From assembly GCA_016786585.1 (NCBI GenBank), contig JAEUUI010000008.1, forward strand, positions 248,001 through 312,000: 64,000 nt of DNA. The letters are read 5' to 3'. The notes below the pieces were generated by a model. It ran no database searches. It had not been told where the DNA came from and saw nothing but the letters and a program-made list of their open reading frames with translations. This stretch comes from Cyclobacteriaceae bacterium (GTDB lineage: Bacteria > Bacteroidota > Bacteroidia > Cytophagales > Cyclobacteriaceae). The first letter of the stretch is position 1. Each line of letters begins with the position of its first letter. This document shows positions 15,301 to 35,756 of the stretch, one piece after another. The translations under genes and the position numbers were made by a program.

Positions 15301-15420
15301 ACATAAATTGACGGTATTGTATTATTATTTTTTTATCCAATCAAAATACAGTAAATCAGATAATTAGATATGTGGTACTCAATTTGTAATTACGATTTTC
15401 GCACATTTTTAGCATTATAA

Positions 15421-15456
15421 CAAACGTTTGAAAATTTAGCTTTGACGTCAGCTAAA
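15421..15456 (+). promoter_or_regulatory. Candidate promoter and operator of the citrate operon
   Basis: TAGCTTTG (15437-15444) fits the TAnnTTTG -7 element, 34 bases ahead of the symporter start. No convincing TTG box lies at the right distance upstream. The -7 element lies inside an inverted repeat TTTAGCT (15435-15441) / AGCTAAA (15450-15456), and a 10-base perfect palindrome CAAACGTTTG (15421-15430) sits just upstream. Both could bind a regulator. The remainder of 15301-15478 is AT-rich with nothing else recognised. Confidence 0.4.
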
Positions 15457-15478
15457 TCCTGGCTTAACAGATACTCGG

Positions 15479-16963: not shown

Positions 16964-16993
16964 CATTACGGTTGTATATTTAGGGTAATACGT

Positions 16994-19779: not shown

Positions 19780-19809
19780 TTTATATTAACGGCATGTCTG
19801 TATTCCCCG

Positions 19810-19835
19810 AAAGGCCACATCTTGTGGTCTTTTTT
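19810..19835 (+). terminator. Rho-independent terminator of the citrate operon
   Basis: Ten-base-pair stem (AAAGGCCACA with TGTGGTCTTT, one G-T pair), a three-base loop and a T run, 31 bases after the citF stop codon. It separates the citrate operon from the riboside locus. Confidence 0.9.
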
Positions 19836-20109
19836 AGTTTATGATTCCTTCTATTTCCGGCTTTTCGTGTTGAATTCGATGCGTCTCCCCACGGGATGCA
19901 ACAACCGTTTCCGGAAAAATTATGGAGCAGAATGGTGCAGCAGGATCTTTTGGTGTGAATGCTAATATTAATGCAAATTTTGTATTTAATTAATTGATTA
20001 TTAAATATTTAAGCTCGTGATAGTCAATTTACAGTTATCAAAATGAGTCATTTTTTGAAGAATTCAATCGTTTGAAGTGGGTACGTTTGAAACACCTATT
20101 CCAAAGTCT
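19836..20109. other. Intergenic region between the citrate and riboside loci
   Basis: The stretch (with the preceding terminator, about 330 bases without a gene) is AT-rich in its centre (for example 19975-20010) and holds no recognisable gene or RNA. Its 3' end carries a candidate promoter, described separately. No direct repeat or strong operator-like palindrome was found. Confidence 0.5.
20051..20089 (+). promoter_or_regulatory. Candidate promoter of the riboside-utilisation operon
   Basis: TACGTTTG (20082-20089) fits TAnnTTTG exactly. A TTTTTTG box lies at 20051-20057, giving a spacer of 24 bases, longer than the usual 19-22. Transcription would begin about 20095, after the alternative in-frame start at 20077. 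This supports the ATG at 20110 for ribokinase. Confidence 0.45.
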
Positions 20110-21030
20110 ATGAAAAAAATCATTGTAATCGGAAGCTGTAATACCGACATGGTTATCAAAACCGACAGGCTTCCTACACCCGGTGAAACTGTGTTGGGTG
20201 GAACGTTTCTGATGAACGCGGGTGGCAAAGGAGCAAACCAGGCAGTAACGGCAGCACGGCAGGGAGGAAAAGTAACATTCATCTCGAAAACCGGTAATGA
20301 TGTTTTCGGAAAGCAGTCGGTTGAACTCTATAATGCTGAAGGTATTAATACTGATTATATTTTTTCTGATCCAAAAAATCCTTCCGGTGTTGCATTGATC
20401 ACGGTCGACTCCCATGGCGAGAATTGTATCGTAGTTGCGTCCGGGGCAAACGGCAGCTTGTCACCAGCCGATATTGAAAGTGCAAAGGCAGAGATCGAAA
20501 CCGGAAACTTTGTGCTTATGCAGCTTGAGATTCCAATTGAGACTGTTGAGTACGCTGCTGCACTTGCCAGTAAAAAAGGCATTCCGGTTATTCTTAACCC
20601 TGCACCCGCCCGGACATTATCGGAAAAACTTTTAAAGTGTCTGTATGTGATCACACCGAATGAACACGAAGCTGAAATGCTTTCCGGAATTAAAGTTACT
20701 GACTGGACAAGTGCCCGCAAGGCAGCCGACATTATCAGTGATAAGGGTGTAGACAATGTTGTTATCACGATGGGTGCACAGGGTGCTTTCATCAAAGAAA
20801 AAGATCAGTACCACACAGTTGATGCAACTAAGGTAGTGGCCATCGATACAACGGCAGCCGGTGACTCCTTCAGCGGGGCGTTTTGTGTTGGTCTTGCGGA
20901 AGGCAAATCGATCGTGGAAGCAGTGAAAAGCGCTACGCGCGTTGCTGCGATAACGGTTACACGAATGGGTGCGCAGTCGTCCATTCCATTCCGCAATGAA
21001 GTTGCATTGTTAGAAGTTGAAAAAGGATAA
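20110..21030 (+). CDS. rbsK: Ribokinase
   Basis: Phosphorylates D-ribose to ribose 5-phosphate in the cytoplasm; PfkB family, 306 aa. The N-terminus KKIIVIGSCNTDMVIKTDRLP and the sugar-binding NAGGKGANQAVTAARQGG are those of ribokinases rather than fructokinases. The C-terminal signature DTTAAGDSFSGAF contains the catalytic Asp. The start at 20110 gives the standard N-terminus; an in-frame codon at 20077 would lie upstream of the promoter. It is the first gene of the riboside locus and is followed by the SusC gene after a 2-base (or 23-base) gap, so free ribose is the expected end product of the pathway encoded downstream. Confidence 0.92.
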   Translation: MKKIIVIGSCNTDMVIKTDRLPTPGETVLGGTFLMNAGGKGANQAVTAARQGGKVTFISKTGNDVFGKQSVELYNAEGINTDYIFSDPKNPSGVALITVDSHGENCIVVASGANGSLSPADIESAKAEIETGNFVLMQLEIPIETVEYAAALASKKGIPVILNPAPARTLSEKLLKCLYVITPNEHEAEMLSGIKVTDWTSARKAADIISDKGVDNVVITMGAQGAFIKEKDQYHTVDATKVVAIDTTAAGDSFSGAFCVGLAEGKSIVEAVKSATRVAAITVTRMGAQSSIPFRNEVALLEVEKG

Positions 21031-21053
21031 GCATGAATATTAACCTCCATCCT

Positions 21054-23984
21054 ATGAAAAGATTTTTGCAAGCCTTTATCACGTGCGCGATGCTGATGGG
21101 AACGATCGGCTCTTTTGCGCAAAGTAAGATTAATGGTTCCGTAAAGGACGCTTCCGGCCAGGGGCTTCCTGGAGTAAGTGTGTCCGTGAAAGGAACAAAT
21201 AATGGAGTGATTACCGAAGCCGATGGCACATTTTCATTGACAGCCTCAGAGGGCTCGGTGCTGGTGTTCTCTTTTATTGGTTACGAATCAGTCGAACATC
21301 CCGTTTCGGGTACAGGCGCAATCAATATTGTGCTGAGTGAGTCGACTACCATGCTGGATGAAGTGGTTATGATAGGTTATGGCACGACAACAAAGAAGGA
21401 ACTTACCGGAGCTGTAACATCGGTAAAAGCAAAAGATTTCAATACGGGTAGTTTTAATGACCCGATCGGGCTTGTCCAGGGAAAAGTTGCCGGCTTACTG
21501 ATCTCGAAGCCCGATGGAGCAGATCCGCTCTCCGGATATCAGATTCTTCTTCGGGGTGCGAACACGCTTACATCAGGTCAGCAGCCGTTAATTATTATCG
21601 ATGGCGTAATCGGAGCGGACTTGAACAACCTCAACTTTCAGGATGTCGAAACATTTGATGTGCTGAAGGATGGGTCTGCTGCCGCGATTTACGGAACACG
21701 TGGAACGAACGGGGTAATCATCATTACCACGAAAAGCGCCCGAAAGGGTAAGGGGACATTTGAATATTCAGTTCAGGGATCAACGCAAGTGGCTCCACGC
21801 GCTGTTCGTAACCTTAGTGCAAAGGAATTTAAATATGCAGTAGAACATTATCCGGTAAGTGCAGGCCCGTCAGTGTTATTGGGTCACGATACAGATTGGT
21901 TTGACGAGGTAACACGCAATCATCCGGTTAGCTATCAGCAGAACCTGGCACTTTCGGGTGGAACAGATTCGTTTTCTCACCGCACATCTGTTACACATAG
22001 TACGGAAACCGGACTTCTGGCCGACAACCAGATGGAACGTTTGCTTGTTAAGTCGAATATCAAACAGAAAGTTCTTCAGGATAAGCTGACGCTCGACTTC
22101 AATTTGATTAACAATGTTTCCAAGTACAAGCCTGCTAACTACGAGATTTTCCGACAGGCATTTATTCAAAATCCAACGCAGCCGGTCTACGATGATTCTG
22201 ATCCGAGAACTGGTGGATATTTTTATGATGACGAATTGGACTACCGAAACCCGGTAGCGATGCTGAAAGAACGCAAGCGCGATGGCAAGACAAACAACCT
22301 CGTGCTGAATATGCGCGCCACACTTCAAATTACGGACGGTCTTTCATGGGACAACTTTATTTCTACTCAAAAGTCGGAGTGGGAAGAGAACTCTTACAAA
22401 ACTCAGTTCTATCCTTCACTGGTTGGAACCAACACAACACCGGGTGTAGCGGGCGAAGCTGAAATTTCAAATGGTCGTAACAGTAACTCGCAACTTGAAA
22501 GCGTTGTAAACTATGCGACATCGTTTGGTGATCATGATCTGCAATTGATTGCTGGGTATAGTTTTCAGGAGTTTGTAGAAAGCAGTTCCTATGTCGGTAA
22601 TTCAAATTTTGATACCGATGTTTATGGTTATAACAATATCGGGGCGGGTTCTTATTTCTATCAGGGTAAGGGTTATCTCGGTTCTTACAAACAGTCGAGC
22701 AGGCTGATCGCGTTGTTCGCACGTGCTTCCTACAATTTTAATGAGCGCTATCTTTTATCTGCATCCCTTCGCAGGGAAGGTTCGTCCAAGTTTGGTGACA
22801 ATCATAAATGGGGATTGTTCCCCGCAGTGAGCGCTGGATGGAGAATCAAAAAAGAGAATTTTCTGTCAGATGTTACCTGGATTGATGAGCTCAAATTAAG
22901 GGCTGGTTTCGGAGTTACGGGAAATCAAGACTTCGATCCTTACAAATCACGGATCCTGCTCGCGCGCAGCGGTAGCTTGTATTACAACGAACAATGGATT
23001 AACGCGTTTGAGCCGGCACAGAATCCTAATCCGGACTTACGATGGGAAAAGAAACGAGAACTGAACATCGGTGCTGACTTCGGCTTGTTCAATAACAAGT
23101 TGAGCGGTAGCATCGAGTACTACAGGCGTAAGACAGTCGATTTGCTATGGACATTCCAGGTCTCCACGCCACCGTATCTCTATAAAGAGTTGTTTGCAAA
23201 TGTCGGCACGATAAGCAACCAGGGCATTGAATTAACACTGAATGCCCAGGTGATGAAGAAAGGCAGTTTCCTCTGGGGAATGATTTTTACAGCGAGTCAT
23301 AATCAGAACAAGCTTAACAAACTTTCGAACAAGGAATTTACCCAGAAGTCGTATGAAGTTGGCTTCATGGGTGGAACTATTACAGCTAACACGCAACGGA
23401 TTGAAGAAGGAAAACCCCTCGGAACATTTTACGGACCGGTTTGGGTAGGTGTGAAAGATGGCCGCGATGTATTTAAAAATCAAAATCCTGTAGGGGAAGT
23501 GGATCGTGACGATTGGGAAGACATCGGTAATGCCAATCCGTTTGCTTTTCTCGGGTGGACAAACAGTTTCAGCTACAAGAACTGGGGCTTGAAGTTTGCC
23601 TTCCGTGCCGGGTTGGGTGGAAAAGTACTGAATTCATATCGTTTGTATTATGAAAGCTGGAAGAGCCTGTCGATCCGCAACATTGTTCACACGCAGTATG
23701 AAAACCCTGAGTTTACGGCAGCGATCACGTATTCATCGAAGTACGTAGAGGACGCAACGTTCCTGAAACTCGATAACATATCGCTCAGCTATAACTTCAA
23801 CATTCAATCGAGGTTTGTGTCGCGCCTGAACATGTTTGCTTCCGCGCAAAATGTTTTTTGGCTCACAAAATATAAAGGCATCGACCCGGAGGTAAACCTG
23901 GGCGGACTTGAGCCGGGTATCGACAGGTTATCGTATTATCCACGGACAACTTCCATAACCATTGGTTTAAATGCAGCATTCTAA
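21054..23984 (+). CDS. SusC/RagA-type TonB-linked outer-membrane transporter
   Basis: Outer-membrane import channel of 976 aa. A signal peptide (MKRFLQAFITCAMLMGTIGSFAQ) is followed by a carboxypeptidase-regulatory-like domain (about 25-105: INGSVKDASGQGLPGVSVSVKGTN in parts), a TonB-box region LDEVVMIGYGT, the plug with QILLRGANTLTSGQQPLIIIDGV and DVLKDGSAAAIYGTRGTNGVIIITTK, and a long beta-barrel ending in an aromatic residue (GLNAAF). An in-frame ATG at 21033 is possible but would lengthen the signal peptide. It pairs with the SusD lipoprotein downstream. The cargo is likely a riboside-containing compound, judged from the neighbouring hydrolases and ribokinase. Confidence 0.95.
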   Translation: MKRFLQAFITCAMLMGTIGSFAQSKINGSVKDASGQGLPGVSVSVKGTNNGVITEADGTFSLTASEGSVLVFSFIGYESVEHPVSGTGAINIVLSESTTMLDEVVMIGYGTTTKKELTGAVTSVKAKDFNTGSFNDPIGLVQGKVAGLLISKPDGADPLSGYQILLRGANTLTSGQQPLIIIDGVIGADLNNLNFQDVETFDVLKDGSAAAIYGTRGTNGVIIITTKSARKGKGTFEYSVQGSTQVAPRAVRNLSAKEFKYAVEHYPVSAGPSVLLGHDTDWFDEVTRNHPVSYQQNLALSGGTDSFSHRTSVTHSTETGLLADNQMERLLVKSNIKQKVLQDKLTLDFNLINNVSKYKPANYEIFRQAFIQNPTQPVYDDSDPRTGGYFYDDELDYRNPVAMLKERKRDGKTNNLVLNMRATLQITDGLSWDNFISTQKSEWEENSYKTQFYPSLVGTNTTPGVAGEAEISNGRNSNSQLESVVNYATSFGDHDLQLIAGYSFQEFVESSSYVGNSNFDTDVYGYNNIGAGSYFYQGKGYLGSYKQSSRLIALFARASYNFNERYLLSASLRREGSSKFGDNHKWGLFPAVSAGWRIKKENFLSDVTWIDELKLRAGFGVTGNQDFDPYKSRILLARSGSLYYNEQWINAFEPAQNPNPDLRWEKKRELNIGADFGLFNNKLSGSIEYYRRKTVDLLWTFQVSTPPYLYKELFANVGTISNQGIELTLNAQVMKKGSFLWGMIFTASHNQNKLNKLSNKEFTQKSYEVGFMGGTITANTQRIEEGKPLGTFYGPVWVGVKDGRDVFKNQNPVGEVDRDDWEDIGNANPFAFLGWTNSFSYKNWGLKFAFRAGLGGKVLNSYRLYYESWKSLSIRNIVHTQYENPEFTAAITYSSKYVEDATFLKLDNISLSYNFNIQSRFVSRLNMFASAQNVFWLTKYKGIDPEVNLGGLEPGIDRLSYYPRTTSITIGLNAAF

Positions 23985-23993
23985 CCTTTAAAG

Positions 23994-25496
23994 ATGAGCA
24001 AAATGAAAAAGTATATAACACTTACAACAATTGCCTTGCTCTTCGTAACGACATCCTGTTTCGATTTGTCGGAGCATATCTACTCAAACATTCCAGCCGA
24101 GAACTTCTTTCAAACCGAAAAGGATGTTATCGCATATGCTGGTCGTGCATACGTTAAGCTTCAACCTTACCCGGAAGAGCAGCGCCTTTGGTCGCTGGGC
24201 GAGCTGGCGGCCGATGAACTTGTGATTCCCACCAAGCATAATGGAGAATGGTATGATCAGGGGCGTTGGGATGATATTCATAAACTGAACATTGCTCCAA
24301 ATAACAAAATCCTTACGCAAGCGTGGGATATGGTTTTTCAGGGAATATCGGCATGTAATGAAATCCTGAGCGTAATCTCTGACATCAATTTCGATAACAA
24401 GGAACGCGTACTTGCGGAGATCAAAATTTTGCGCGCGTTCTATTACTACTGGGGAATGGACTACTGGGGTAACATTCCATTTTCAACCTCGTACGGTTCA
24501 AAAGAACTACCACTGCAAAAGGATCGCGTGTTCGTGTATGAGTTTATCATGCAGGAGATTGACGAAAATATTGACTTCCTCCAGGAGACACCGACCACCC
24601 AATACTATGGTCGTGTTACCAAAGCCATGGCGTACATGCTTCAGGCGAAAATGTATATGAATGCCCAGGAGTGGATCGGAGAAGATCACTTTGCGGATGC
24701 TGTTACTGCTTGTGATAACATCATAGCGATAGGCGCGTATGAAATTGCTGACGACTACTTTGCAAACTTCAAAATTCACAATGAAGACTCGAAGGAGAAC
24801 ATATTTGTTATCCCGTATCAGGCTCAACTCACAACTGAGCACTTCTACTGGTCTTATCTGACCTTGAATTCAGCCAGTCGCGCAACCATTAACATGACGG
24901 GTGTTCCGTGGGATGGCTTTGTTGTCAACCCGACATTCTTTACCAAATATGCTGACGAAGATTTGCGCAGAAAGTCATTTCTGTTCGGGCAGCAGTATGA
25001 TAAAGCCGGAAATCCGATTGTGATTGACGGTGTGCCCTTCATTTACACGCCAACCATTGCAAACTATAATTCACGTGGGGAATGGGAGGGAGCGCGTATT
25101 GCCAAGTATGAATATCAGGAAGAACTTAATTATGATGTGAATGACATGGAGAATGACTTTGTGCTCTTCCGGTACGCCGATGTGCTCTACACAAAATTGG
25201 AGGCATTGTATCGCCTTGGTCAGGCGGCCACGTTCATCAGTGATCCTGATTTGCAGAAAATTCGTACCCGTGCGGGGTTAATACCCTATACTGTTGGTGA
25301 CCTGACCGACACTGAATTATTGGATGAGCTTGGACGTGAGTTTGCGTTTGAGGGTCACCGCAGACAGGATATGATTCGCTTTGGCGTGTGGGAAAATGCA
25401 GGTTGGAATAAGCCGGCAACTACACCAAATAAGCGCCTCTTTCCGATACCTCAAACGGCCATAAATACAAATAATAACCTACAGCAAAATCCGTAA
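23994..25496 (+). CDS. SusD/RagB-type nutrient-binding lipoprotein
   Basis: Surface lipoprotein, 500 aa, that captures the substrate and hands it to the SusC channel. It has a lipoprotein signal with the lipobox in FVTTSCFDLS. The family pattern is plain: an N-terminal TPR-like helical part (AENFFQTEKDVIAYAGRAYVKLQ, ILRAFYYYWGMDYWGNIPF) and the C-terminal SusD signature FRYADVLYTKLEALYRLG ... ELLDELGREFAFEGHRRQDMIRFG. A second in-frame ATG at 24003 is an alternative start. It lies 9 bases after the SusC gene and 3 bases before the first ADP-ribosylglycohydrolase. Confidence 0.95.
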   Translation: MSKMKKYITLTTIALLFVTTSCFDLSEHIYSNIPAENFFQTEKDVIAYAGRAYVKLQPYPEEQRLWSLGELAADELVIPTKHNGEWYDQGRWDDIHKLNIAPNNKILTQAWDMVFQGISACNEILSVISDINFDNKERVLAEIKILRAFYYYWGMDYWGNIPFSTSYGSKELPLQKDRVFVYEFIMQEIDENIDFLQETPTTQYYGRVTKAMAYMLQAKMYMNAQEWIGEDHFADAVTACDNIIAIGAYEIADDYFANFKIHNEDSKENIFVIPYQAQLTTEHFYWSYLTLNSASRATINMTGVPWDGFVVNPTFFTKYADEDLRRKSFLFGQQYDKAGNPIVIDGVPFIYTPTIANYNSRGEWEGARIAKYEYQEELNYDVNDMENDFVLFRYADVLYTKLEALYRLGQAATFISDPDLQKIRTRAGLIPYTVGDLTDTELLDELGREFAFEGHRRQDMIRFGVWENAGWNKPATTPNKRLFPIPQTAINTNNNLQQNP

Positions 25497-25499
25497 ACG

Positions 25500-27494
25500 A
25501 TGAAGTTGAGAATTGCTCTTAGTGTTTTTGTTCTGCTGATCGCGGTCAACGTTACCGTTGCTCAAAAGAAAACTATTTCGAAGACCGAACTGCGCGACAA
25601 GATTGCCGGTGCGTGGATTGGGCAGATGATCGGTAACATCTACGGATTGCCACACGAGAACAAATACGTAAACGCCCCGGGCGATGAAAGCAAGTGGCCT
25701 TATGGTTACACGAAAAATCTCGACAAGCTTAAGCAGTACAAGGGTGCGTTCTCCGATGACGATACCGATGTAGAATACATGTATTTGCTCACTATGGAAA
25801 AATACGGCCACGAACCGACTTATGAGCAGATGCGTGATGCGTGGATGTTTCATATCCGCGACCGTGTATGGCTTGCAAACCGTGGCGCACTCGGCCTGAT
25901 GCATTTCGGATATACTCCGCCTTTTACAGGAGACAAGAATATCAATCCTCACTGGTTTCAAATCGATCCGCAACTCATCAACGAAATCTGGGCGTACACG
26001 GCTCCCGGAATGGTAAAGTATGCTGCGCAGAAATCCGATTGGGCTGCACTGATTACCAGTGATGAATGGGGCGCTGAACCAACCGTAATGTATGGAGCAA
26101 TGTATGCTGCTGCATTCTTTGAAAAGGACATCCGTAGGCTCATCGATATCGGGTTAAAAGAATTACCGGTGAATGGACGCTACGCGCAGACCGTTCGCGA
26201 TATGATCGCGCTGCATCAGAAGTATCCGAACAACTGGCAGGACGCATGGAAGGAGATGGCCGGGAAGTATTATATCAATGAACCTGATCTTACTAAAACT
26301 ATCTGGAACGCAAACCTCAACGGAGCATGTGGCATCCTGGCCATGCTTTATGGAAAGGGTGATTTTCAGAAAACACTCGACCTGTCGTGCGCGATGGGGT
26401 TCGATGCCGATAACCAGGCTGCAACCGTTGCCGGGTTGCTCGGTATAATTTATGGCTTCAAAGGTCTGCCGGCAAATTTGTACCTGCCAATCGAAGGCTG
26501 GACAAAACCATTCAACGACACATACATCAACATTACCCGTCACGAGTTGCCGGATGCCAGCATACAGGATATGATCGACAGAACGTTAACGGTAACGCTT
26601 GATCTTATTAAAGCTGAAGGTGGTTCTGTAAGTGGGAAAGCAGGTGCTGAGAAAATCACCATCAACACCGCAGCCACGTTCGATGTGCCGGTAGAGTTTT
26701 ATGTTGGTCCTGCGCCACGCATGGAAGTTAACAAACCGGTTGACTTTGTTTTCTACAGCGATGCAAACAAGAAATATAACTGGACTTTGGCCGGTGGAAA
26801 TCTGCCGAAAGGCGTAACGTTTGAAAAAGGAAAGCTATCCGGTACACCGACCGTTCCCGGCAACTACAAAATCACCGTACAGCTTGATAACGGAAAGAAA
26901 TTCCTCAAAAAAGATTTTGATCTGCTCGTCCGCACCCAGAACATCGCGGGCTCCGCAACGAGCGTGTTGTCGAACGTAAATGAGCTTAACTGGAAAGTAA
27001 TTGATTCAGCATGGGTAACATTTGGAAAGTCGATGTATGCAACCACACCTGATCCGGTTCTTCGTGATGGAAAGTTCAATGGCACCGGCTCTGTTTTTTA
27101 TAGCCTGGCCGCAAAGGCTAAAATTCCGAAAGTAGACTACTATGGTTACGAATGGAAAGAAGAACAAAATATCGACATGATTGGCTTCTTTACCGGAGGA
27201 ATGGAAGAGTTCGGAGGCTGGTTCACGTCATTGAATGTTCAGTATAAAAACGCGGAAGGAAAATGGGTTCCGGTTGAACGGACGCTGATCAACCCACCGC
27301 TGCCGAAAACCGACGTTGTGTTTTTTCAACCGCATTTCGTGGAGTATATCATCAGCTTCGCTCCGGTAAAAACAAAAGCCATTCGGATTATCGGTGATGC
27401 CGCGATCCAGGATCACTGGAACAAATACACGAAGAAAGTTTCCGGGTTTACATCGATCAGTGAACTCAGTGTTTATAAGTCTGAAAGCAAATAG
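25500..27494 (+). CDS. Exported ADP-ribosylglycohydrolase with putative Ig-like domain
   Basis: Probable periplasmic or surface glycohydrolase of 664 aa, first of three paralogues. After a signal peptide (MKLRIALSVFVLLIAVNVTVAQ) comes the ADP-ribosylglycohydrolase (DraG/ARH) domain: KIAGAWIGQMIGNIYG at the start, metal-site acidic residues in AFSDDDTDVEYMYL, and the second metal cluster in GFDADNQAATVAGLLG. Residues about 400-480 form a putative Ig domain of the type LPKGVTFEKGKLSGTPTVPGNY, followed by a C-terminal beta-rich region. The family hydrolyses N- or O-glycosidic bonds to ribose. Export is unusual for classical DraG enzymes and suggests a catabolic role here. Confidence 0.88.
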   Translation: MKLRIALSVFVLLIAVNVTVAQKKTISKTELRDKIAGAWIGQMIGNIYGLPHENKYVNAPGDESKWPYGYTKNLDKLKQYKGAFSDDDTDVEYMYLLTMEKYGHEPTYEQMRDAWMFHIRDRVWLANRGALGLMHFGYTPPFTGDKNINPHWFQIDPQLINEIWAYTAPGMVKYAAQKSDWAALITSDEWGAEPTVMYGAMYAAAFFEKDIRRLIDIGLKELPVNGRYAQTVRDMIALHQKYPNNWQDAWKEMAGKYYINEPDLTKTIWNANLNGACGILAMLYGKGDFQKTLDLSCAMGFDADNQAATVAGLLGIIYGFKGLPANLYLPIEGWTKPFNDTYINITRHELPDASIQDMIDRTLTVTLDLIKAEGGSVSGKAGAEKITINTAATFDVPVEFYVGPAPRMEVNKPVDFVFYSDANKKYNWTLAGGNLPKGVTFEKGKLSGTPTVPGNYKITVQLDNGKKFLKKDFDLLVRTQNIAGSATSVLSNVNELNWKVIDSAWVTFGKSMYATTPDPVLRDGKFNGTGSVFYSLAAKAKIPKVDYYGYEWKEEQNIDMIGFFTGGMEEFGGWFTSLNVQYKNAEGKWVPVERTLINPPLPKTDVVFFQPHFVEYIISFAPVKTKAIRIIGDAAIQDHWNKYTKKVSGFTSISELSVYKSESK

Positions 27495-27495
27495 A

Positions 27496-29151
27496 ATGAA
27501 GTTGGTTATTAATAATTTTTGGTTGTTGTTGATTGTGTGTGTGATAGCTTCCGGTTGCAAGCCGGAGGCTACCACCGCTTCTGATGATGTATTGTCGAAG
27601 GAGTCGGTCACCATGTCAAAAATTTCGCTTCAGGATAAAATCAAGGGTGGATGGGCCGGTCAAACCATTGGTGTGGTTTACGGAGCGCCTGTTGAGTTCA
27701 AGTATCAGGGATCATTGATAGACGACAAGATGAATATCCCGTGGAATGAACATTATGTGAAATACTGGTGGGATAAGAAGCCGGGATTGTTTGATGACAT
27801 CTATACCGACCTGAACTTTGTTAAAGCATTTCAGAATCATGGATTAAATGCAACGTCCGATTCGATCGCTCATCACTGGTCGAATACCGCGTATCACCTC
27901 GCGCACGCAAACCAGGCTTCACGTTATAACATCTTAAACGGAATCATGCCCCCGGCATCAGGATTCTGGAAGAACAACCCCCATGCAGACGATATCGATT
28001 TTCAAATCGAAGCTGATTTTATCGGCCTGATGGCCCCCGGAATGGTGAATGCCGCAACCGACATAGCTGATCGTGTTGGGCACGTGATGAATAGCGGAGA
28101 CGGTTGGTATGGCGGGGTGTTCGTGTCAGCGATGTACTCACTGGCGTTTGTATCGAACGATCCGGTATATATCGTAGAGCAGGCAATCAAGACCATCCCT
28201 GCTGGAACGAAGTTTCACGATTGCATCGCGGATGTAATTGCGTGGCATAAGCAATATCCCAACGACTGGAAGCAAACGTGGTTTGAAGTTCAAAAGAAAT
28301 GGAACCTGGACGTTGGTTGTCCGAAAGGCGCATTCCTCGGGTTTAACATCGATGCAAAGATTAATTCTGCGTACGTAGCAATCGGAATGCTGTACGGTAA
28401 CGGTGACTTCACGAAGTCGGTTGACATCGCAGCGCGTTGCGGTCAGGATGCTGACTGCAATCCGGCAACGGTAGGAGGTGTGCTCGGTGTGATGCTGGGG
28501 TATGATAAAATACCTGCGTTCTGGCTAAAGGCCTTACAAGAGATTGAGCATGATAATTTCGAGAACACGGACGTGTCACTTGCCAAAGCGTATACGTGGA
28601 GTTTCAGTCACGCTCTTGCGATGATTGAACAACAAGGCGGTAAAATCTCCGGTGACAAAATTACCATTCCGCTCACGAAGCCGGTCGCTGTGAAATTCGA
28701 ACAGAATTTTGAGAAGACCTTTCTGGTTGAACGAAGCAAAATCGACAAGTCATTCACCGATGAAATCACCCTGGAATTTACCGGTAACGGGTATCTGCTC
28801 TACGGCAACATGGTGAAACGGGCAAAGATTGATCCTGACTATGTCGATCGCATTGCAAAACGTACCTATGGTTCAGAGCCACTCGGGCTTGCAGAGATAA
28901 ACGATCCGTATGTTGCTATCATGCATGTGTACACCGATGGCATTGTTACCGATACCATTTCGTTGCCGATGATGAATACTGCCCGCAAGCTTGAACCCTC
29001 ATGGAACTACCAGATGCCCGAAGGCAAGCACACCATTCGTCTTAAATGGATCAATCCGGATAAAGGCTATGAATACCGCATCAACGATATGGTTGTGTAT
29101 TCGGAGAATGAACCAAAAAGTAATCTTCCTGTAAGCGACAAAAAACAATGA
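27496..29151 (+). CDS. ADP-ribosylglycohydrolase lipoprotein, second paralogue
   Basis: Predicted lipoprotein (lipobox in VIASGCKPEA), 551 aa from the ATG at 27496; longer in-frame readings overlap the preceding gene and lack a signal peptide. The glycohydrolase domain shows KIKGGWAGQTIGVVYG, the acidic metal site in LFDDIYTDLNFV and the second cluster CGQDADCNPATVGGVLG. The centre carries NPHADDIDFQIEADFIG, shared with the next gene. The last ~130 residues form a beta-rich domain (GNGYLLYGNMVKRAK, PEGKHTIRLKWINPDKG) that may bind carbohydrate. It is much closer to the following paralogue than to the preceding one, indicating a recent tandem duplication. Its stop overlaps the next start by four bases. 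Confidence 0.87.
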   Translation: MKLVINNFWLLLIVCVIASGCKPEATTASDDVLSKESVTMSKISLQDKIKGGWAGQTIGVVYGAPVEFKYQGSLIDDKMNIPWNEHYVKYWWDKKPGLFDDIYTDLNFVKAFQNHGLNATSDSIAHHWSNTAYHLAHANQASRYNILNGIMPPASGFWKNNPHADDIDFQIEADFIGLMAPGMVNAATDIADRVGHVMNSGDGWYGGVFVSAMYSLAFVSNDPVYIVEQAIKTIPAGTKFHDCIADVIAWHKQYPNDWKQTWFEVQKKWNLDVGCPKGAFLGFNIDAKINSAYVAIGMLYGNGDFTKSVDIAARCGQDADCNPATVGGVLGVMLGYDKIPAFWLKALQEIEHDNFENTDVSLAKAYTWSFSHALAMIEQQGGKISGDKITIPLTKPVAVKFEQNFEKTFLVERSKIDKSFTDEITLEFTGNGYLLYGNMVKRAKIDPDYVDRIAKRTYGSEPLGLAEINDPYVAIMHVYTDGIVTDTISLPMMNTARKLEPSWNYQMPEGKHTIRLKWINPDKGYEYRINDMVVYSENEPKSNLPVSDKKQ

Positions 29152-30722
29152 AGAGAGCCTTAGTCTATAGTATCTGTGTGCTGTTAATGGCAGCTTCCTG
29201 CAGAAAGAGGGAACTTGAATCAAGTGCGTTGCCTGAACGTTTCTCGATTTCAACAGAAGCGTTGAAAGATAAAATCCGCGGAGGCTGGGCGGGGCAAACC
29301 ATCGGCTGCACATTTGGCGGACCAACAGAATTCAAATTTAAAGGAACACTCATTCAGGACTATCAGCCGATCATCTGGCACGACCACTATATTAAAGAAA
29401 CATTCGAGATTGATCCGGGTCTGTACGATGATGTCTACATCGACATGACATTCGTAGAGATTCTTGAGAAATATGGGTTAAATGCCCCGGTGGATTCTTT
29501 CGCTTTGTCGTTTGCGCGTGACGATTACAAGCTCTGGCATGCCAATCAGGCGGCACGCTATAACATCCTCAATGGAATCATGCCACCGGCATCCGGTCAT
29601 TGGATGAATAACCCGCATGCGGATGATATTGATTTCCAGATTGAGGCCGACTTCGCGGGCATGATGACTCCCGGAATGATCAACGCCTCATCAATCATTT
29701 GCGACAGCATCGGCCATATTATGAACTATGGCGATGGTTTTTACGGAGGCGCTTTTATGTCGGCTATGTACTCGGCCGCTTACGTGACAGACGATATAGA
29801 ACTGGTTGTTAGCGAAGCATTAAAAATCATTCCTCCCGAAAGCAAGTTTTACAAAACCATTGCCGATGTTATTGCCTGGCATAAACAGTACCCGGATGAC
29901 TGGAAAAAGGCCTGGTTTGAAATCGAGAAAAATCATTCATCTGATAAAGGTTGTTCGGAAGGTGTGTTCAATGCCTTCAATATCGATGCAAGCCTGAATG
30001 CAGCCTATGTTGTGATGGGATTATTGTATGGTGAAAAAGACTTCTTCAAAACCATGGACGTTGCCACACGATGCGGTCAGGATTCGGATTGTAATCCCGC
30101 AACCGCTGCGGGTATCCTCGGAGTGATGATCGGATATAAAAATATTCCGAAGTACTGGAAGCCTGCGCTGGAGGAAGCCGAGGACCTGAAGTTTCCGTAC
30201 ATGGATATTTCACTCCGTCAGATTTATGACTTGAGCTTCAAGCACGCACTGGCAGTCGTGCGCGCAAATGGAGGTACAATTTCGGATTCATTAATCGCAA
30301 TCAACGTTCAGCAACCTCAAGCGCTAAAGCTTGAGCAATCTTTCGAAGGCTTGTATCCCGCATCGGAGTTGTTAATACGTAAAGATCATCTCGACGATCC
30401 GATTGTTGTGGATTTTACCGGGAATGGTGTAGTGGTGTTGGGGAATCTCAGGAGTGTATGCGGTGCATCGCAGAGTGATTACGTGGCATTGCTGGATGTT
30501 TATGTTGATGGAAAGAACACCGGGCAGATGAAAATGCCATTCGACTACATCGTTCGTAAATACGACATCTATCACAACTATTCACTGCCACTAGGCAAGC
30601 ATAAAATTGAAATTAAGTGGACGAATCCAAATCCGGATTTCAGAATGTATTTAAAGTCGGTGGTCACGTACGGTGATTCACCGGTGAAATCGATTGATCC
30701 TGTGGTTGCAAACGAAAAATGA
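29148..30722 (+). CDS. ADP-ribosylglycohydrolase lipoprotein, third paralogue
   Basis: Predicted lipoprotein (lipobox in LLMAASCRKR), 524 aa. Domain order matches the second paralogue: KIRGGWAGQTIGCTFG, LYDDVYIDMTFV, NPHADDIDFQIEADFAG, CGQDSDCNPATAAGILG, then a C-terminal beta-domain (LPLGKHKIEIKWTNPNPD). Metal-binding aspartates are retained, so it is probably active. The start overlaps the previous gene (ATGA), and the double-domain esterase gene begins one base after its stop. Divergence in the substrate-side loops between the three paralogues suggests different ribosides or different linkages. Confidence 0.87.
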   Translation: MKRALVYSICVLLMAASCRKRELESSALPERFSISTEALKDKIRGGWAGQTIGCTFGGPTEFKFKGTLIQDYQPIIWHDHYIKETFEIDPGLYDDVYIDMTFVEILEKYGLNAPVDSFALSFARDDYKLWHANQAARYNILNGIMPPASGHWMNNPHADDIDFQIEADFAGMMTPGMINASSIICDSIGHIMNYGDGFYGGAFMSAMYSAAYVTDDIELVVSEALKIIPPESKFYKTIADVIAWHKQYPDDWKKAWFEIEKNHSSDKGCSEGVFNAFNIDASLNAAYVVMGLLYGEKDFFKTMDVATRCGQDSDCNPATAAGILGVMIGYKNIPKYWKPALEEAEDLKFPYMDISLRQIYDLSFKHALAVVRANGGTISDSLIAINVQQPQALKLEQSFEGLYPASELLIRKDHLDDPIVVDFTGNGVVVLGNLRSVCGASQSDYVALLDVYVDGKNTGQMKMPFDYIVRKYDIYHNYSLPLGKHKIEIKWTNPNPDFRMYLKSVVTYGDSPVKSIDPVVANEK

Positions 30723-30723
30723 T

Positions 30724-32295
30724 ATGAAGGGGAGGCTGATGTTTGTGGTGTTAGTGCTCATCCTGGTAACAGGATGTTCGGATGATGAACCGAAAAAGGT
30801 TACGGTGCCTTTCGTGCGGTTGCGTGAAGATCAGATTCTGCAAAGCTCGGTACTCAATCGCGCAGTTGAATACGCAGTGTTGTTACCTGCCGGGTACGAT
30901 GAGTCGGAAGAGACTTATCCGGTGGTGTATCTGCTGCATGGCTATGGTGATGATGAAACTGCCTGGTATAAAAACGGTGGACTTCAGTTTTTTGTGGATA
31001 AATACATTGCCGAAACAGTTCCAATGATCTACGTGATGCCGCAAGGTTTCAATACGTATTACATCGATAAATACAACGGCACGTTTCCGTACATGGACAT
31101 GTTTGTAAATGAGCTGGTTCCTGAAATTGACGCACGGTTCCGCACCAAGCCCGACAAATCACAACGGGCGGTCATGGGCTACTCGATGGGAGGGTATGGC
31201 GCGCTGATTTTACCGGCCATGCACCCGGAAGTTTTCTCGATCAGTATCCCGTTAAGCATGTCTTTCCGGACGGACGAGCAATACATTGCTGAGTCGCAAC
31301 AGGCGTTCGATAATCAATGGGCTCCCAACTTTGGTCCCGCAAAGGGTGTGTCGGGTGCTGCCCGGATCACGCAGTATTTTAAAGACAGAAGTCCCTTCTA
31401 CTTCTTTCAGGAAGAGGATTTGAATGCATACAACGATGTAAAGTTTCTGATCGACTGCGGGGATGATGAAGAAGCGCTGATTTTTACGATCAACAATCTT
31501 CATTCACTGATGCGCAACAAGGGTATCGCGCATGAGTATCGCGTACGAAGTGGTGGCCATTCTTTCGATTACTGGAAAAAATCATATCCTGAGGCATTGA
31601 AATTTATCAGCAATGCTGTTCAAGGGGTTCCATATCCAACGGAGCCTGCTCCGGCAGAGGCGGGCACATTGATCAGCGAAAGCGAAATTGAATCTGCTGA
31701 CGTATCGGGTATTAGCCTGAATATTCTAACACCTGCTGACTATTCCGCTACAACAGTCGAATACCCGGTTTTGTATCTCATGCATGACCCAGGCGCAAAT
31801 GCGCAAGCCAATCGCGTTAAGACATTCTCGCTGCTGCGCAACGCGATGATCGCGGCTAAAATACCACAGTCGGTTGTTGTTGAGATCAATGAAACGCTGG
31901 CAGACGATGAAAAAATCGATGAGATAATCGCGTACGTTGACGGAGCGTATCGAACAAAAGATCTTCGGGCGAATCGTGTCATTGTGGGAAACGGATCATT
32001 GGCCTTGAATGCTCTGATGTTGGCAGACGAGTCAGACAACTTTAGTGATTGCTTTATTTTCAACGCGCAGCTGCCGGACGAAGGTGCCGATGTTTCGGGA
32101 GATGTGTTTTACTATGTTGACGGAACCGATAAGAATGCAAGCTTCAAGGGGTATGAAAACCTGTATCTCAAAATCAGGAACGATGGCACGGATGGCTACG
32201 AGTACCGTGTGCGTCAGGGCGCTGAATCTCACCAGGCATTCTTAAACGGACTTAACGAATCGTTTTCATCCTTAAAAGAAAGTCTTACCCGATGA
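30724..32295 (+). CDS. Tandem esterase lipoprotein, second domain degenerate
   Basis: Lipoprotein (lipobox in VLILVTGCSDD) of 523 aa with two alpha/beta-hydrolase (esterase D/PF00756-like) domains. Domain 1 (about 25-290) is intact: YPVVYLLHGYGDDETAW, the nucleophile in GYSMGGYGAL and a C-terminal His in RSGGHSFDYW. Domain 2 (about 315-515) keeps the fold pattern (YPVLYLMHDPG) but the nucleophile elbow reads GNGSLALNAL, with Gly where Ser should be. It is therefore probably non-catalytic. The enzyme may remove acyl groups from the locus substrate. The start at 30724 follows the previous stop by one base; the next gene overlaps by ATGA. Confidence 0.82.
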   Translation: MKGRLMFVVLVLILVTGCSDDEPKKVTVPFVRLREDQILQSSVLNRAVEYAVLLPAGYDESEETYPVVYLLHGYGDDETAWYKNGGLQFFVDKYIAETVPMIYVMPQGFNTYYIDKYNGTFPYMDMFVNELVPEIDARFRTKPDKSQRAVMGYSMGGYGALILPAMHPEVFSISIPLSMSFRTDEQYIAESQQAFDNQWAPNFGPAKGVSGAARITQYFKDRSPFYFFQEEDLNAYNDVKFLIDCGDDEEALIFTINNLHSLMRNKGIAHEYRVRSGGHSFDYWKKSYPEALKFISNAVQGVPYPTEPAPAEAGTLISESEIESADVSGISLNILTPADYSATTVEYPVLYLMHDPGANAQANRVKTFSLLRNAMIAAKIPQSVVVEINETLADDEKIDEIIAYVDGAYRTKDLRANRVIVGNGSLALNALMLADESDNFSDCFIFNAQLPDEGADVSGDVFYYVDGTDKNASFKGYENLYLKIRNDGTDGYEYRVRQGAESHQAFLNGLNESFSSLKESLTR

Positions 32296-33839
32296 AAACA
32301 TTGAGACTAATCATATTGATTGTTTTTTCCGGAGCATCAGTCAGCTATGCTCAAAAGCCACGCATTGAAGAGGGGGTTGCGATGAGCAGTAAAATTTTAG
32401 CGCAGGATGTAAAGTATTCAATCATTCTTCCGGAAGACTACTACACGTCAAAGAAAAGCTACCCGGTTGTTTATCTGCTGCATGGCTTGGGCGATAACGA
32501 ATCTTCCTGGCTTGAATACGGACAGATAAGCCAGGTCGCGGATGCGGCCGTGAAGAAGAAAGAAATCGTGCCGATGATTTACGTGATGCCTGCCGGATAT
32601 CGCAATTACTATGTAAACGACTATGCCGGTAAGTTTTTGTACGAGGATATGTTTATAAAAGAACTTGTTCCCTATATCGATTCGCATTACAGAACCCTTG
32701 CCGATAAATCACAGCGTGCAACATTAGGTTACTCCATGGGTGGCTTTGGTGCGTTAGTTCTGCCACTCCGTAACCCGGATGTCTTTACCGTCAGCGTGCC
32801 TTTGAGTATCTCCGTTCGTACGGATAGTCAGTACATGACAGAAGAAGCTTCCGGTTGGGATGATCAATGGGGCAGATTATTCGGGGCGGTGGGTGTAACA
32901 GGTGAAGGTAGGATCACGGAGTACTATAAACAGCATTCTCCGTTTCACATTTTTGCACAAAGCGATTTAAGTTCATTACGGAACCTAAGGTTATACGTCG
33001 ATAATGGCGATGATGAAGAAACCCTTTGCCGGAGTAACGAAGAACTGCACATGCTTTTACGCGACAGGAAATTTCCGCACGAGTTCCGGGTGCGTAATGG
33101 GGGGCACGAGTTTCAATATTGGCGCGATGCGCTTCCAAATGGACTGCACTTCATCAGTGATGCATTTGAAAGAAAACCATATCGGGGTGATGTCAAAAAT
33201 TTGACTCCGGCTGCAAACGTTTCCAACTCACTAAAGATTGTTAACGAAAGCGGGTTCGAAATTCTCCTCCCGGCAGAATATGAAAGAACAAACCGGCTGT
33301 ACCCGGTGCTGTATGTTATTGGAAATCTGACAGCATCTTCAAAAGATAAGATCAGTGCGCATATCTCACTTTCTATCGCAAATGCAACGCTCACACCTTT
33401 GATCACCGTGTTTGTCGATTCAAAACAAACGGATGTTGTTGCTTCTGTCGTTCCGGCTGTCGAAAAGAAATATCGGGCAAGAATTGGATGGCGTTTCCGG
33501 GCATTGATCGGAATAGAAGCAGGCGGAACAGTTGCGCTCGAAAGCGCACTTATTCCGGAGACGTTTACTTCTTGCGTGCTTTTCGATGTGCCCATTGATT
33601 GTGACGCGCTCAAATCAGGTGTTCAGACCAGTAAAAAGCAACTCAGCCGCACATGGTTTTTTATGTATAGTACCGACAAAGGCGAAGCTTATCAGGGTAA
33701 TGGCTGTGCGCATATCTACCTGCGTGATGAAGAAGTTTATCACGAATACCGTGTGCAGGAGGGGAAGGGCGGGGAGGCGTGGATACTCAATAACCTTGAT
33801 GAGGCATTAACCTTCACACAACGTAAAATTCACCGATAG
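32292..33839 (+). CDS. Tandem exported esterase, second paralogue, second domain degenerate
   Basis: Exported (signal peptide MKTLRLIILIVFSGASVSYAQ) two-domain esterase-like protein, 515 aa, homologous throughout to the preceding gene. Domain 1 carries YPVVYLLHGLGDNESSW, nucleophile Ser in GYSMGGFGAL, and His in RNGGHEFQYW, so it should be active. Domain 2 (about 310-510) has GIEAGGTVAL at the nucleophile elbow, with Glu in place of Ser, and no obvious catalytic His. Unlike its neighbour it has a signal peptidase I-type signal rather than a lipobox, so it may be soluble in the periplasm. The permease gene follows after 19 bases. Confidence 0.82.
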   Translation: MKTLRLIILIVFSGASVSYAQKPRIEEGVAMSSKILAQDVKYSIILPEDYYTSKKSYPVVYLLHGLGDNESSWLEYGQISQVADAAVKKKEIVPMIYVMPAGYRNYYVNDYAGKFLYEDMFIKELVPYIDSHYRTLADKSQRATLGYSMGGFGALVLPLRNPDVFTVSVPLSISVRTDSQYMTEEASGWDDQWGRLFGAVGVTGEGRITEYYKQHSPFHIFAQSDLSSLRNLRLYVDNGDDEETLCRSNEELHMLLRDRKFPHEFRVRNGGHEFQYWRDALPNGLHFISDAFERKPYRGDVKNLTPAANVSNSLKIVNESGFEILLPAEYERTNRLYPVLYVIGNLTASSKDKISAHISLSIANATLTPLITVFVDSKQTDVVASVVPAVEKKYRARIGWRFRALIGIEAGGTVALESALIPETFTSCVLFDVPIDCDALKSGVQTSKKQLSRTWFFMYSTDKGEAYQGNGCAHIYLRDEEVYHEYRVQEGKGGEAWILNNLDEALTFTQRKIHR

Positions 33840-33858
33840 TAAACCTAACCTATAAACT

Positions 33859-34863
33859 ATGTATATCATCAGCAGCTATTCTCTCGCAGTCTTTTTCTGC
33901 ATCATCACGATGCTGTGCTGGGGCTCGTGGGGTAACACGCAAAAACTGGCCGCCAAAACCTGGCGCTATGAATTATTTTATTGGGACTACGTAATCGGCA
34001 TTGTGCTGCTTTCGGTTGTGTTTGGATTTACGCTTGGAAGCATGGGCGAGCAGGGAAGAAGCTTTACAACTGACCTGGCGCAGGTAAGCAGCGACAATTT
34101 GTGGAGTGCGATCCTGGGCGGAGTAATCTTCAATGCATCAAACATCTTGTTGTCAGCGTCCATTTCCATTGCCGGAATGGCTGTGGCGTTCCCGGTAGGC
34201 GTGGGCCTTGCACTTGTGCTGGGTGTTATCCTGAATTATAACAGCGCATCGAAAGATGATCCGATAATTCTGTTCGCGGGTGTTGCACTGATCATGGTGG
34301 CAATCATTTTTAACGGCATTGCTTCGGGAAAAATGGCAACAGGCGATAAGAAATCATCTTCCAAGGGAATCTGGCTCGCGGTTATCGCAGGGATATTGAT
34401 GTCGTTCTTCTACCGTTTTGTAGCGGCCGCGATGGATGTAAACAATTTCGAATCGCCCACACCGGGAATGATGACACCGTACACGGCCTTTTTTGTTTTT
34501 GCGATCGGCATGCTCATCAGCAACTTCCCGTTCAACACATTGATTATGAAAAAGCCGTTTGTTGGTGCGCCTGTGACGTACAAAGATTATTTCAGCGGAA
34601 GCTTCAGTACGCATCTCGTGGGTGTTGCCGGAGGGCTAATCTGGGGACTCGGAACCGTGCTTAGTTATATGTCGGCAGGTAAAGCGGGTGCCGCCATCTC
34701 GTATGCGCTGGGTCAGGGTGCAACAATGGTGGCTGCATTCTGGGGTGTGTTCATCTGGAAAGAATTTAAAGGAGCCAGTGCGCGTGTTAACGTACTGCTG
34801 TTCTTCATGTTTTTACTTTTTATCTCAGGCCTCGCACTCATCATTGTGTCGGGAGGCAATTAA
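33859..34863 (+). CDS. GRP-family sugar permease (probable ribose transporter)
   Basis: Inner-membrane permease of 334 aa with about ten hydrophobic segments. It belongs to the glucose/ribose porter branch of the drug/metabolite transporter superfamily: CWGSWGNTQKLAAKTWRYELFYWDY at the N-terminus, FPVGVGLALVLGVILNY in the first half and GGLIWGLGTVLSYMSAGKAGAAISYALGQG in the second. With ribokinase as the only sugar kinase in the locus, ribose is the most likely cargo. Nucleosides or other small sugars are possible. It corresponds to the inner-membrane step of the riboside pathway. Confidence 0.85.
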   Translation: MYIISSYSLAVFFCIITMLCWGSWGNTQKLAAKTWRYELFYWDYVIGIVLLSVVFGFTLGSMGEQGRSFTTDLAQVSSDNLWSAILGGVIFNASNILLSASISIAGMAVAFPVGVGLALVLGVILNYNSASKDDPIILFAGVALIMVAIIFNGIASGKMATGDKKSSSKGIWLAVIAGILMSFFYRFVAAAMDVNNFESPTPGMMTPYTAFFVFAIGMLISNFPFNTLIMKKPFVGAPVTYKDYFSGSFSTHLVGVAGGLIWGLGTVLSYMSAGKAGAAISYALGQGATMVAAFWGVFIWKEFKGASARVNVLLFFMFLLFISGLALIIVSGGN

Positions 34864-34900
34864 ACAATTAAACTAACTAATAACCTAAAACAATTTAGCT

Positions 34901-35701
34901 ATGAAAAGAAGTCTGATGTTTTTAAGTGCTGCGGTACTGGCATTGAGTACTGCATTTATTTCATCGTGCAGCGATGACGAGAGCGGTGGTGGGTCGAAAG
35001 TTCCGCCAGCAAAAATTAAGACCATTGCTTTTAATGACGGTTTTGCGATTGAGAGCTGGGCGTTTTCGTATGATGATCAGGATCGCGTAACCAGTATCAG
35101 CAATGTATACGATGGTGGCGACCCGGCAACAATTACGTATACCTACGATGATGCAGCGAGTGAGTTAACGATCGATAAAGACGGAAATGAAACAGTTTAT
35201 GCGCTTGATACCGAAGGCCGTGTTATTAAGGAATACTGGAACGAAGATAAAACCGAATGGGAAGGTTATCAGTACAATTCTGATGGTCGCATGATTAAAA
35301 TCTTCGAACACTACAGCGGAGCAGATCACCTGAAATATGACCTTACCGTGGAAGATAACAACACTACGCACCGCATCCGGTATGAAGATGATGGTACTAC
35401 CGTTCGTGAAGACCGTGAGTTCACCTATACCATCGGTGATAACGCCAGCGGAATCCACCAGATTTATGCGGTAGACTCAGAGTGGAAGAATATTGCAGGT
35501 TTGTACGGCAAGCAGAGCGAAAAACTTGTTGAAGCCTATGTTCGCCACATCACCGAAGAACCAGGTACAAGCTATGGAGCAACGTATGCCTATACTTTCG
35601 ATGATAAGGATCGTGTAGCTACACAAACCAAAAATGGTACAAGCAGTGGTGGGACGTTTACTGAATCGTGGGCTTACACGTACTACGAAGACGGAGAGTA
35701 A
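34901..35701 (+). CDS. Lipoprotein with YD-like repeats
   Basis: Predicted lipoprotein (MKRSLMFLSAAVLALSTAF, lipobox in FISSCSDD) of 266 aa. The mature part is made of short beta-hairpin repeats of the type 'FSYDDQDRVTSISN', 'YTYDDAASELTIDKDGN', 'YALDTEGRVIKEYW', 'YQYNSDGRMIKIFE' and 'YTFDDKDRVATQTKNG'. This is the YD/RHS-like pattern of Bacteroidota surface lipoproteins (DUF4595-like). Function unknown; it may bind carbohydrate or another surface. It lies 37 bases after the permease and just before a strong terminator, so it is probably the last gene of the riboside operon. Confidence 0.75.
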   Translation: MKRSLMFLSAAVLALSTAFISSCSDDESGGGSKVPPAKIKTIAFNDGFAIESWAFSYDDQDRVTSISNVYDGGDPATITYTYDDAASELTIDKDGNETVYALDTEGRVIKEYWNEDKTEWEGYQYNSDGRMIKIFEHYSGADHLKYDLTVEDNNTTHRIRYEDDGTTVREDREFTYTIGDNASGIHQIYAVDSEWKNIAGLYGKQSEKLVEAYVRHITEEPGTSYGATYAYTFDDKDRVATQTKNGTSSGGTFTESWAYTYYEDGE

Positions 35702-35722
35702 TTCCTTTTTAGTTAGAGTTCG

Positions 35723-35756
35723 GGCCGGGAGCGATTATTCGCTTTCGGCCTTTTTT
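35723..35756 (+). terminator. Terminator of the riboside locus
   Basis: Twelve-base-pair stem (GGCCGGGAGCGA with TCGCTTTCGGCC, two G-T pairs), loop TTAT and a run of six T. Its T run overlaps the stop codon of the convergent fucosidase gene. Confidence 0.92.

Follow-up and report, generated by a model that had tools for sequence, protein, structure and literature searches.

What would a bacterium consume with a locus that combines ribose-utilization genes, three exported ADP-ribosylglycohydrolase-family proteins (AGHs, here AGH1, AGH2, and AGH3), two exported esterases, and a citrate-lyase-like enzyme? The question is raised by a rus-family locus in a 64,000-nucleotide stretch of DNA from a Cyclobacteriaceae bacterium (Bacteroidota; assembly GCA_016786585.1, contig JAEUUI010000008.1, positions 248,001 to 312,000 of the forward strand), referred to here as the window. 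An earlier reading of the letters (the original prediction) confined a riboside-utilization locus to positions 20051-35756 and proposed that it imports and cleaves acylated ribosides or ADP-ribose-like compounds. Those limits were too narrow: the locus starts at a RusR gene at 13783, and a module of transporter, CitDE, and CitF (15479-19779) had been missed. With RusR and this module included, the predicted substrate becomes ribose conjugated to a citrate-like acid, and the earlier interpretation, taken as a whole, is partly supported. Judging from sequence comparisons, we think it likely that the substrate is such a conjugate, its ribose passing to ribokinase and its acid to CitF/CitDE. What is new here is the citrate-lyase arm, together with its recurrent association with AGHs; finding an AGH with a citrate-lyase-type enzyme in different clusters points to a concrete, testable substrate class.

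A Citrate-Lyase-Like Arm in a rus-Family Locus

The locus opens with a RusR homologue on the minus strand (13783-15300; BT2802 family ribose utilization protein, NCBIfam NF058569, 678.4 bits against a cut-off of 550). Divergent from it, on the plus strand, lies the citrate arm, which consists of three genes: a DASS/SLC13-type sodium-coupled di/tricarboxylate transporter (15479-16963; TIGR00785, 274 bits, cut-off 198.6), whose best Protein Data Bank (PDB) relatives are NaDC3, SLC13A2, and the Na+/citrate cotransporter SLC13A5; a fusion of a CitD-like citrate-lyase acyl carrier with a CitE-like beta subunit (16994-18223; PF06857 and PF03328 above cut-off); and the citrate lyase alpha subunit CitF (18220-19779; TIGR01584, 522 bits, cut-off 501), the sole PF04223 match in the genome. 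We classify the CitDE-CitF module as citrate-lyase-like and do not file it as citrate lyase. By eye, the acyl-carrier serine motif seems to be kept in the module (16994-19779) and in 13 related genomes.

The likeness to Bacteroides rus loci, already drawn in the original prediction, held up when gene content was compared: the RusR-family match, an equivalog-level ribokinase match, and synteny support placing the window's cluster in the rus family. Two gene orders connect the citrate arm to the ribose genes. In the window and in genomes G001-G004 and G012, the divergent RusR gene is followed by DASS, CitDE, CitF, ribokinase, SusC, SusD, AGH, esterase, and permease genes and the gene of a small lipoprotein (YD), the last two in either order; in G010, which lacks AGH1, the divergent RusR gene faces ribokinase, after which come SusC, SusD, AGH, esterase, permease, and YD, and DASS, CitDE, and CitF close the series. 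The DASS gene alone follows YD in loci L010, L011, and L013. These loci belong to a sample obtained by scanning one genome per species for AGH2 relatives, from which 80 of 86 confirmed stretches were kept, some of them short contigs. Of the 80 loci, 10 have a RusR homologue lying divergently next to ribokinase; in L101-L104 and L110 it lies so next to the DASS gene. A ribokinase is encoded in 33 loci, the permease in 28. The sample includes an 'Alphaproteobacteria' metagenome-assembled genome (MAG) contig (L044) with a Bacteroidota-type RusR-ribokinase-AGH-permease cluster, perhaps a binning error.

The RusR/DASS intergenic region (15301-15478), presumed to be a control region, contains CGTTTGAAA, which also occurs upstream of the ribokinase gene (19780-20109) and in near relatives. 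It may be a shared control element; the comparison covered 26 intergenic stretches that are partly redundant.

Distribution and Phylogeny of CitF

The ribokinase-to-lipoprotein unit recurs in near-identical gene order in 12 further loci or locus pieces (L005-L016), which argues against a chance assembly of genes; the variants are a swap of the permease and last lipoprotein genes (L008, L016) and the absence of AGH1 (L014). Orthologues of the unit (L005-L017) come from Cyclobacteriaceae MAGs, a Flammeovirgaceae MAG, Gelidibacter japonicus (strain Bio7-1, L008/L104/L179, a carrier of the entire locus), a Lutibacter MAG, a Paludibacter MAG, and other Bacteroidales or unplaced Bacteroidetes MAGs. 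Together with the window's own, these make up 14 genomes, of which those of L012, L015, and L017 hold only part of the unit. CitF scores above cut-off in 12 of the 14 and is linked to the locus in seven. Excluding the window's own genome, CitF is present in 11/13 locus genomes versus 36/394 other genomes of the phylum (Fisher p ~1e-9). Across the whole phylum sample, 37 of 395 genomes carry CitF; the window's is one of these, and no other among them bears the label of the window's class.

This association is specific to one kind of CitF. In a tree of 44 sequences, the 12 CitFs of locus genomes form one clade (support 0.999), including the five encoded on another contig, separate from the remaining sequences, which are 29 CitFs from elsewhere in the phylum and three from the ABC-type clusters described below. 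The clade spans Cyclobacteriaceae/Flammeovirgaceae, Flavobacteriaceae genera, and Bacteroidales, and the seven linked CitFs make up a subclade (0.953; 0.959 in a tree with four more sequences). For comparison, we used 24 rus-core genomes, in whose locus AGH1 and the esterases are absent as judged on the fetched stretch, not the genome; outside L005-L017, 25 loci have a ribokinase in that stretch, and all but L029 are represented. Only four of these controls encode CitF, all ~42% identical and outside the 12-member clade. Clade CitF thus occurs in 11/13 locus genomes versus 0/24 controls (Fisher p ~9e-8), and counting any CitF in the controls still gives p ~9e-5.

AGH-Lyase Pairing in Other Architectures

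We inspected 32 CitF surroundings in the phylum, 16 drawn from the 36 other genomes with CitF and 16 more from the class that holds the ATP-binding cassette (ABC)-type clusters; CitF lies behind AGH arrays in three of them. In ABC-type clusters, the AGHs are accompanied by binding-protein and permease genes. A search with one such AGH found close relatives in 8/245 genomes of the class. CitDE-CitF is contiguous with the array in five of the eight and CitF lies elsewhere in the other three; leaving out G494, whose CitF fragment at a contig end is absent from the class-wide count, CitF is found in 7/8 ABC-type genomes versus 49/237 others (p ~1.6e-4). Seven clusters have four AGHs (one partly cut in G374), and G509 has three, where the contig ends; the binding-protein/permease genes are of the same kind in 6/8, replaced by another ABC set in G374, and not visible in G509. 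A hydrolase completes the cluster, from PF00144 in six genomes (three by Pfam, the rest by tblastn) and from PF00756 in one; by eye, these proteins have a signal-peptide-like start, and the PF00144 protein tested falls far below resistance-type models. The AGHs show no evident export. One of the four, AGHa (L193, L201, L175), has altered residues in the alignment at several positions of the metal site and for this reason may be non-catalytic. An actinobacterial four-AGH cluster (L210) has a ribokinase at its end in place of the lyase.

A third arrangement is found on plasmids of Rhizobiaceae/Phyllobacteriaceae, where LacI, ABC permeases, a binding protein, two AGHs, and usually an ATPase are followed by a family III coenzyme A (CoA)-transferase in 8/12 loci and by a CitE-like lyase as well in 7/12; on one Agrobacterium plasmid, a ribokinase occupies this slot. 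The 12 loci come from 23 plasmid AGH contexts, out of 33 records; several are from a single species and so do not count as independent, and the CoA-transferase and lyase of L221 are in pieces. Genes on these high-GC plasmids were placed by tblastn, a simple picker of open reading frames having taken frames on the opposite strand. Another plasmid record, L215 (CP103578.1, 'Enterobacter plasmid'), has pgm, seqA, fldA, fur, and glnS around its LacI-AGH-binding-protein group, which casts doubt on either the plasmid label or the assembly.

That different enzymes serve for splitting the acid in these clusters argues that the AGH products are ribose and a citrate-like acid. We entertain, tentatively and as something short of probable, that a ribosyl-citrate (ribocitrin-type) catabolic pathway was built three times from different parts: SusC/D, exported AGHs, and CitDEF in Bacteroidota; an ABC importer, AGHs without evident export, and CitDEF in other families of that phylum; and an ABC importer, AGHs, and a CoA-transferase/CoA-ester lyase in rhizobia. 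If so, part of the ADP-ribosylglycohydrolase family would be citrate or hydroxy-acid ribosidases, and such conjugates would be common nutrients in soil, sediment, and water.

The Gene Run from Ribokinase to the Last Lipoprotein

Downstream of the citrate arm, the genes named in the original prediction lie in one tight plus-strand run, and their order and packing agree with that description. The run begins with ribokinase (20110-21030; TIGR02152, 377 bits, cut-off 300; NF008353, 353.5 bits, cut-off 341), a SusC/RagA TonB-dependent outer-membrane transporter (21033-23984; TIGR04056, 715 bits), and a SusD/RagB-like surface binding lipoprotein (23994-25496; PF07980, PF14322). These are followed by AGH1 (25500-27494; PF03747, 101 bits), with an Ig-like (He_PIG, PF05345) stretch and a further C-terminal region; the lipoprotein AGH2 (27496-29151; 129 bits), with a C-terminal beta-rich domain; the lipoprotein AGH3 (29148-30722; 124 bits), 47% identical to AGH2; the feruloyl-esterase-like lipoprotein EST1 (30724-32295; PF00756), whose PDB relatives include ferulic acid esterases; EST2 (32292-33839; PF00756), an exported esterase of the EST1 family; and a GRP/DMT-type sugar permease resembling RusT (33859-34863; PF07168 and PF06800 above cut-off). 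Last comes a conserved small lipoprotein (34901-35701) with homologues in 9/80 loci; the YD-repeat label given to it earlier does not hold well, the RHS_repeat match (20.8 bits) being below the cut-off of 22. From ribokinase to permease, neighboring genes are 1-19 bases apart or share ATGA overlaps, the latter present as predicted at 29148/29151 (AGH2/AGH3) and 32292/32295 (EST1/EST2), and 37 bases separate the permease from the last lipoprotein. The lipoboxes claimed for the run are visible by eye in AGH2, AGH3, EST1, and the last lipoprotein, whereas AGH1 and EST2 have a signal peptide with no lipobox cysteine. Likewise, hairpins are present where two flanking terminators had been placed, at 19809-19833 (plus strand, between CitF and ribokinase) and at 35722-35751 (plus strand, 13 pairs, T-rich tail), both by consensus match only; they are only suggestive as terminators because the scan returned 27 such sites versus 18.4 (sd 4.1) expected.

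Two flanking genes were considered and left out of the locus. A GH29 fucosidase-like gene (35755-37101) lies convergently on the opposite strand, and a close match adjoins the locus only in L005 and L006; a dihydrolipoyl-dehydrogenase-like gene (12292-13773) adjoins it only in L101 and L102.

The three AGHs all pass the PF03747 cut-off of 26.2 bits, and AGH1 is about 30% identical to AGH2 and AGH3. Each forms its own clade with its orthologues (12, 13, and 13 sequences; support 0.975, 1.0, and 1.0), so the split into three paralogues came earlier than the spread of the locus among these lineages. The metal-binding DD, DxD, and N-terminal Glu of the family are kept in the window's proteins: E67, D100, D101, D318, and D320 are invariant in 38 sequences, and in AGH1 the invariant residues are E53, D86-D88, D302, and D304 (14 sequences). 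We take these to match residues of ARH3, whose fold AGH2 resembles at about 13% identity; a structure model of AGH1 was of low quality (mean pLDDT 55) and was set aside. The genome also encodes a fourth, orphan exported AGH (C16:236067-236939, L178), 52% identical to AGH2; its neighbors, by eye, are a PAP2-like membrane phosphatase and a heavy-metal efflux system, with no ribokinase or permease in 20 kb.

EST1 and EST2 score 120 and 146 bits for PF00756 (cut-off 22). Their first domains carry putative catalytic triads, assigned by motif, not structure: S154, D247/D248, and H279 in EST1 (invariant in 10 sequences) and S148, D240, and H272 in EST2 (invariant in nine). The second domain is degenerate in both.

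Substrate, Pathway, and Alternative Explanations

A substrate that is acylated and more complex than free nucleosides, as the original prediction proposed, is favored by the extra hydrolases, by the two esterases with putative triads, and by the lack of a nucleoside hydrolase; the earlier remark that none is present in the locus extends to the whole assembly (96% complete), which has no PF01156 match. Going further, we regard the locus as probably a rus-family system specialized on a ribose conjugate whose acid is citrate or a closely related 3-hydroxy acid. In the pathway we propose, SusC/D would import the conjugate across the outer membrane; EST1 and EST2 would remove ester links, acting on a citrate ester, an ester between units, or a lactone; and AGH1-3 would cleave alpha-ribosidic bonds outside the cytoplasm. 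Ribose would then enter through the GRP permease and be phosphorylated by ribokinase, while the DASS transporter would take up the tricarboxylate for CitF/CitDE to split into acetate and oxaloacetate, or analogous products. The bond between acid and ribose could be glycosidic, as in ribocitrin, or an ester.

Ribocitrin is the alpha-ribofuranoside of citric acid and is the known natural candidate for the substrate. A literature search for ribosyl-citrate found nothing else, nor did we find a paper joining citrate lyase with ADP-ribosylglycohydrolase, ribokinase, and SusD; one paper combines the latter three but has no citrate lyase. The accessible part of one report describes a tentative identification of ribocitrin by liquid chromatography-mass spectrometry in a Streptomyces strain, terms it a dextransucrase inhibitor, and lists a 1982 structure paper among its references (PMC13136089). 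The ribokinase-AGH-permease core is present in many Bacteroidota, and to our knowledge no natural substrate has been established for it. The proposal would imply a likely new reaction for a family named after ADP-ribose, and ribose-hydroxyacid conjugates would be an overlooked pool of organic matter.

Several observations weigh against this proposal; they are given here together with two alternatives. The first retains the system and exchanges the acid, so that citramalate, a malate-type acid, or another 3-hydroxy acid would be split by the CitE-like lyase. The CitE part scores below the citrate-lyase beta equivalog TIGR01588 (284 vs 443 bits), with RipC as the next best model, and the CitD part falls below the acyl-carrier equivalog (60.8 vs 63.5 bits); the acid may therefore not be citrate. 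The plasmid CoA-transferase and CoA-ester lyase, too, are below every equivalog cut-off listed. The CitC, CitG, and CitX families each have no match in the 14 genomes; the acyl carrier must then be activated by another route, and here too the acid could be something related to citrate. On the other side stand the transporter's resemblance to di/tricarboxylate carriers and a window CitF above the citrate-lyase alpha equivalog cut-off, which the ABC-type member tested misses (460 vs 501 bits). We see a non-citrate acid as possible, if on the unlikely side.

The second alternative is that an ordinary expanded rus locus for acylated or modified nucleosides or ribosides lies by chance next to a separate citrate-fermentation unit. 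The 330-base gap and the terminator-like hairpin between CitF and ribokinase are in its favor, as is the finding of CitDE/CitF on another contig in five of the 14 genomes; in two more (2.9-3.0 Mb), CitF was not found. These cases prove neither separation nor loss because the contigs are short, and the completeness figure quoted above applies to the window assembly, not to the 13 locus genomes or the 24 controls. Moreover, CitDE-CitF of other Bacteroidota often keeps different company: in 13 of the first 16 surroundings, it shares an operon with an MmgE/PrpD-type gene (one member tested) and, by eye, with isocitrate dehydrogenase and aconitase. Also weighing against the main proposal, CitF is not rare in the ABC-type class (56/245 genomes); the monophyly of the seven linked CitFs suggests that linkage in the SusC/D type may have arisen only once; and the other 11 of the 23 plasmid AGH contexts contain no CitDE, CitF, CoA-transferase, or lyase. 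Chance adjacency is nonetheless hard to reconcile with the co-occurrence of the locus and its own CitF clade across lineages, even without a shared contig, with the placement of the transporter or CitDE/CitF at either locus end depending on the lineage, or with distinct AGH-lyase clusters whose genes overlap or lie close together (the gap in L193 is ~0.56 kb). We consider a separate citrate unit unlikely.

Two further explanations concern the ribose side. The three AGHs might cut different ribosidic links in an acylated ribofuranose-containing polysaccharide, such as a capsule or O-antigen, but no other glycoside hydrolase family matches within the unit, and the downstream GH29 gene, on the other strand, is a neighbor in just two related loci; this explanation is decidedly doubtful. 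Scavenging of ADP-ribose, NAD, or protein-linked ADP-ribose is very improbable, and the ADP-ribose-like substrate of the original prediction finds no specific support: although the AGH2 fold is ARH3-like, the AGHs lie far below the DraG (<=22.7 bits vs 490) and ADP-ribosylarginine-hydrolase (<=19.6 vs 337) equivalog cut-offs, no pyrophosphatase or phosphatase family is among the matches of the run or the upstream arm, and the citrate arm would be left unexplained.

Comparison with Known Systems

The proposed ribose-citrate-type locus shares parts with several characterized systems. ARH3/DraG hydrolases usually have Thr after the DxD motif. The AGHs share their fold and metal-site Asp pairs but are exported, carry an extra C-terminal domain, and have Cys or Asn at that position. 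Compared with CitDEF of citrate-fermenting bacteria, the window has the acyl-carrier, beta, and alpha subunits, with CitF above its equivalog cut-off; it differs in the fusion of CitD to CitE, in the lack of any maturation-gene match in the 14 genomes, and in the linkage to ribose genes. Another pairing of an AGH with a riboside kinase is found in the Salmonella STM4065-4066-4067 operon, whose kinase is reported to act on aminoimidazole riboside; the accessible portion of that paper does not mention SusC/D or citrate genes as members (PMC3161100), and the available text of two Salmonella papers does not link AGH and citrate genes.

A Parabacteroides distasonis plasmid (L213) is closer, with a BT2802-family gene (636 bits) divergent from ribokinase, followed by an AGH and a GRP transporter; unlike the window, it has a nucleoside hydrolase and a single AGH, and no SusC/D, esterase, or citrate gene within the 19 kb shown. 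The closest comparison is the rus locus of Bacteroides thetaiotaomicron (BT2802-BT2809), which has two ribokinases where the window has one. The available text of two reports gives the RusR iModulon as BT2803-2809 (PMC12596196) and the genes as ribokinase, TonB receptor, SusD, a DUF4969 protein, nucleoside hydrolase, and DMT permease (PMC10434189). The window shares the RusR-family gene, ribokinase, the SusC/D pair, and the DMT/GRP-type permease; it lacks the nucleoside hydrolase, in the locus as in the assembly, and adds the three AGHs, the two esterases, and the DASS-CitDE-CitF arm.

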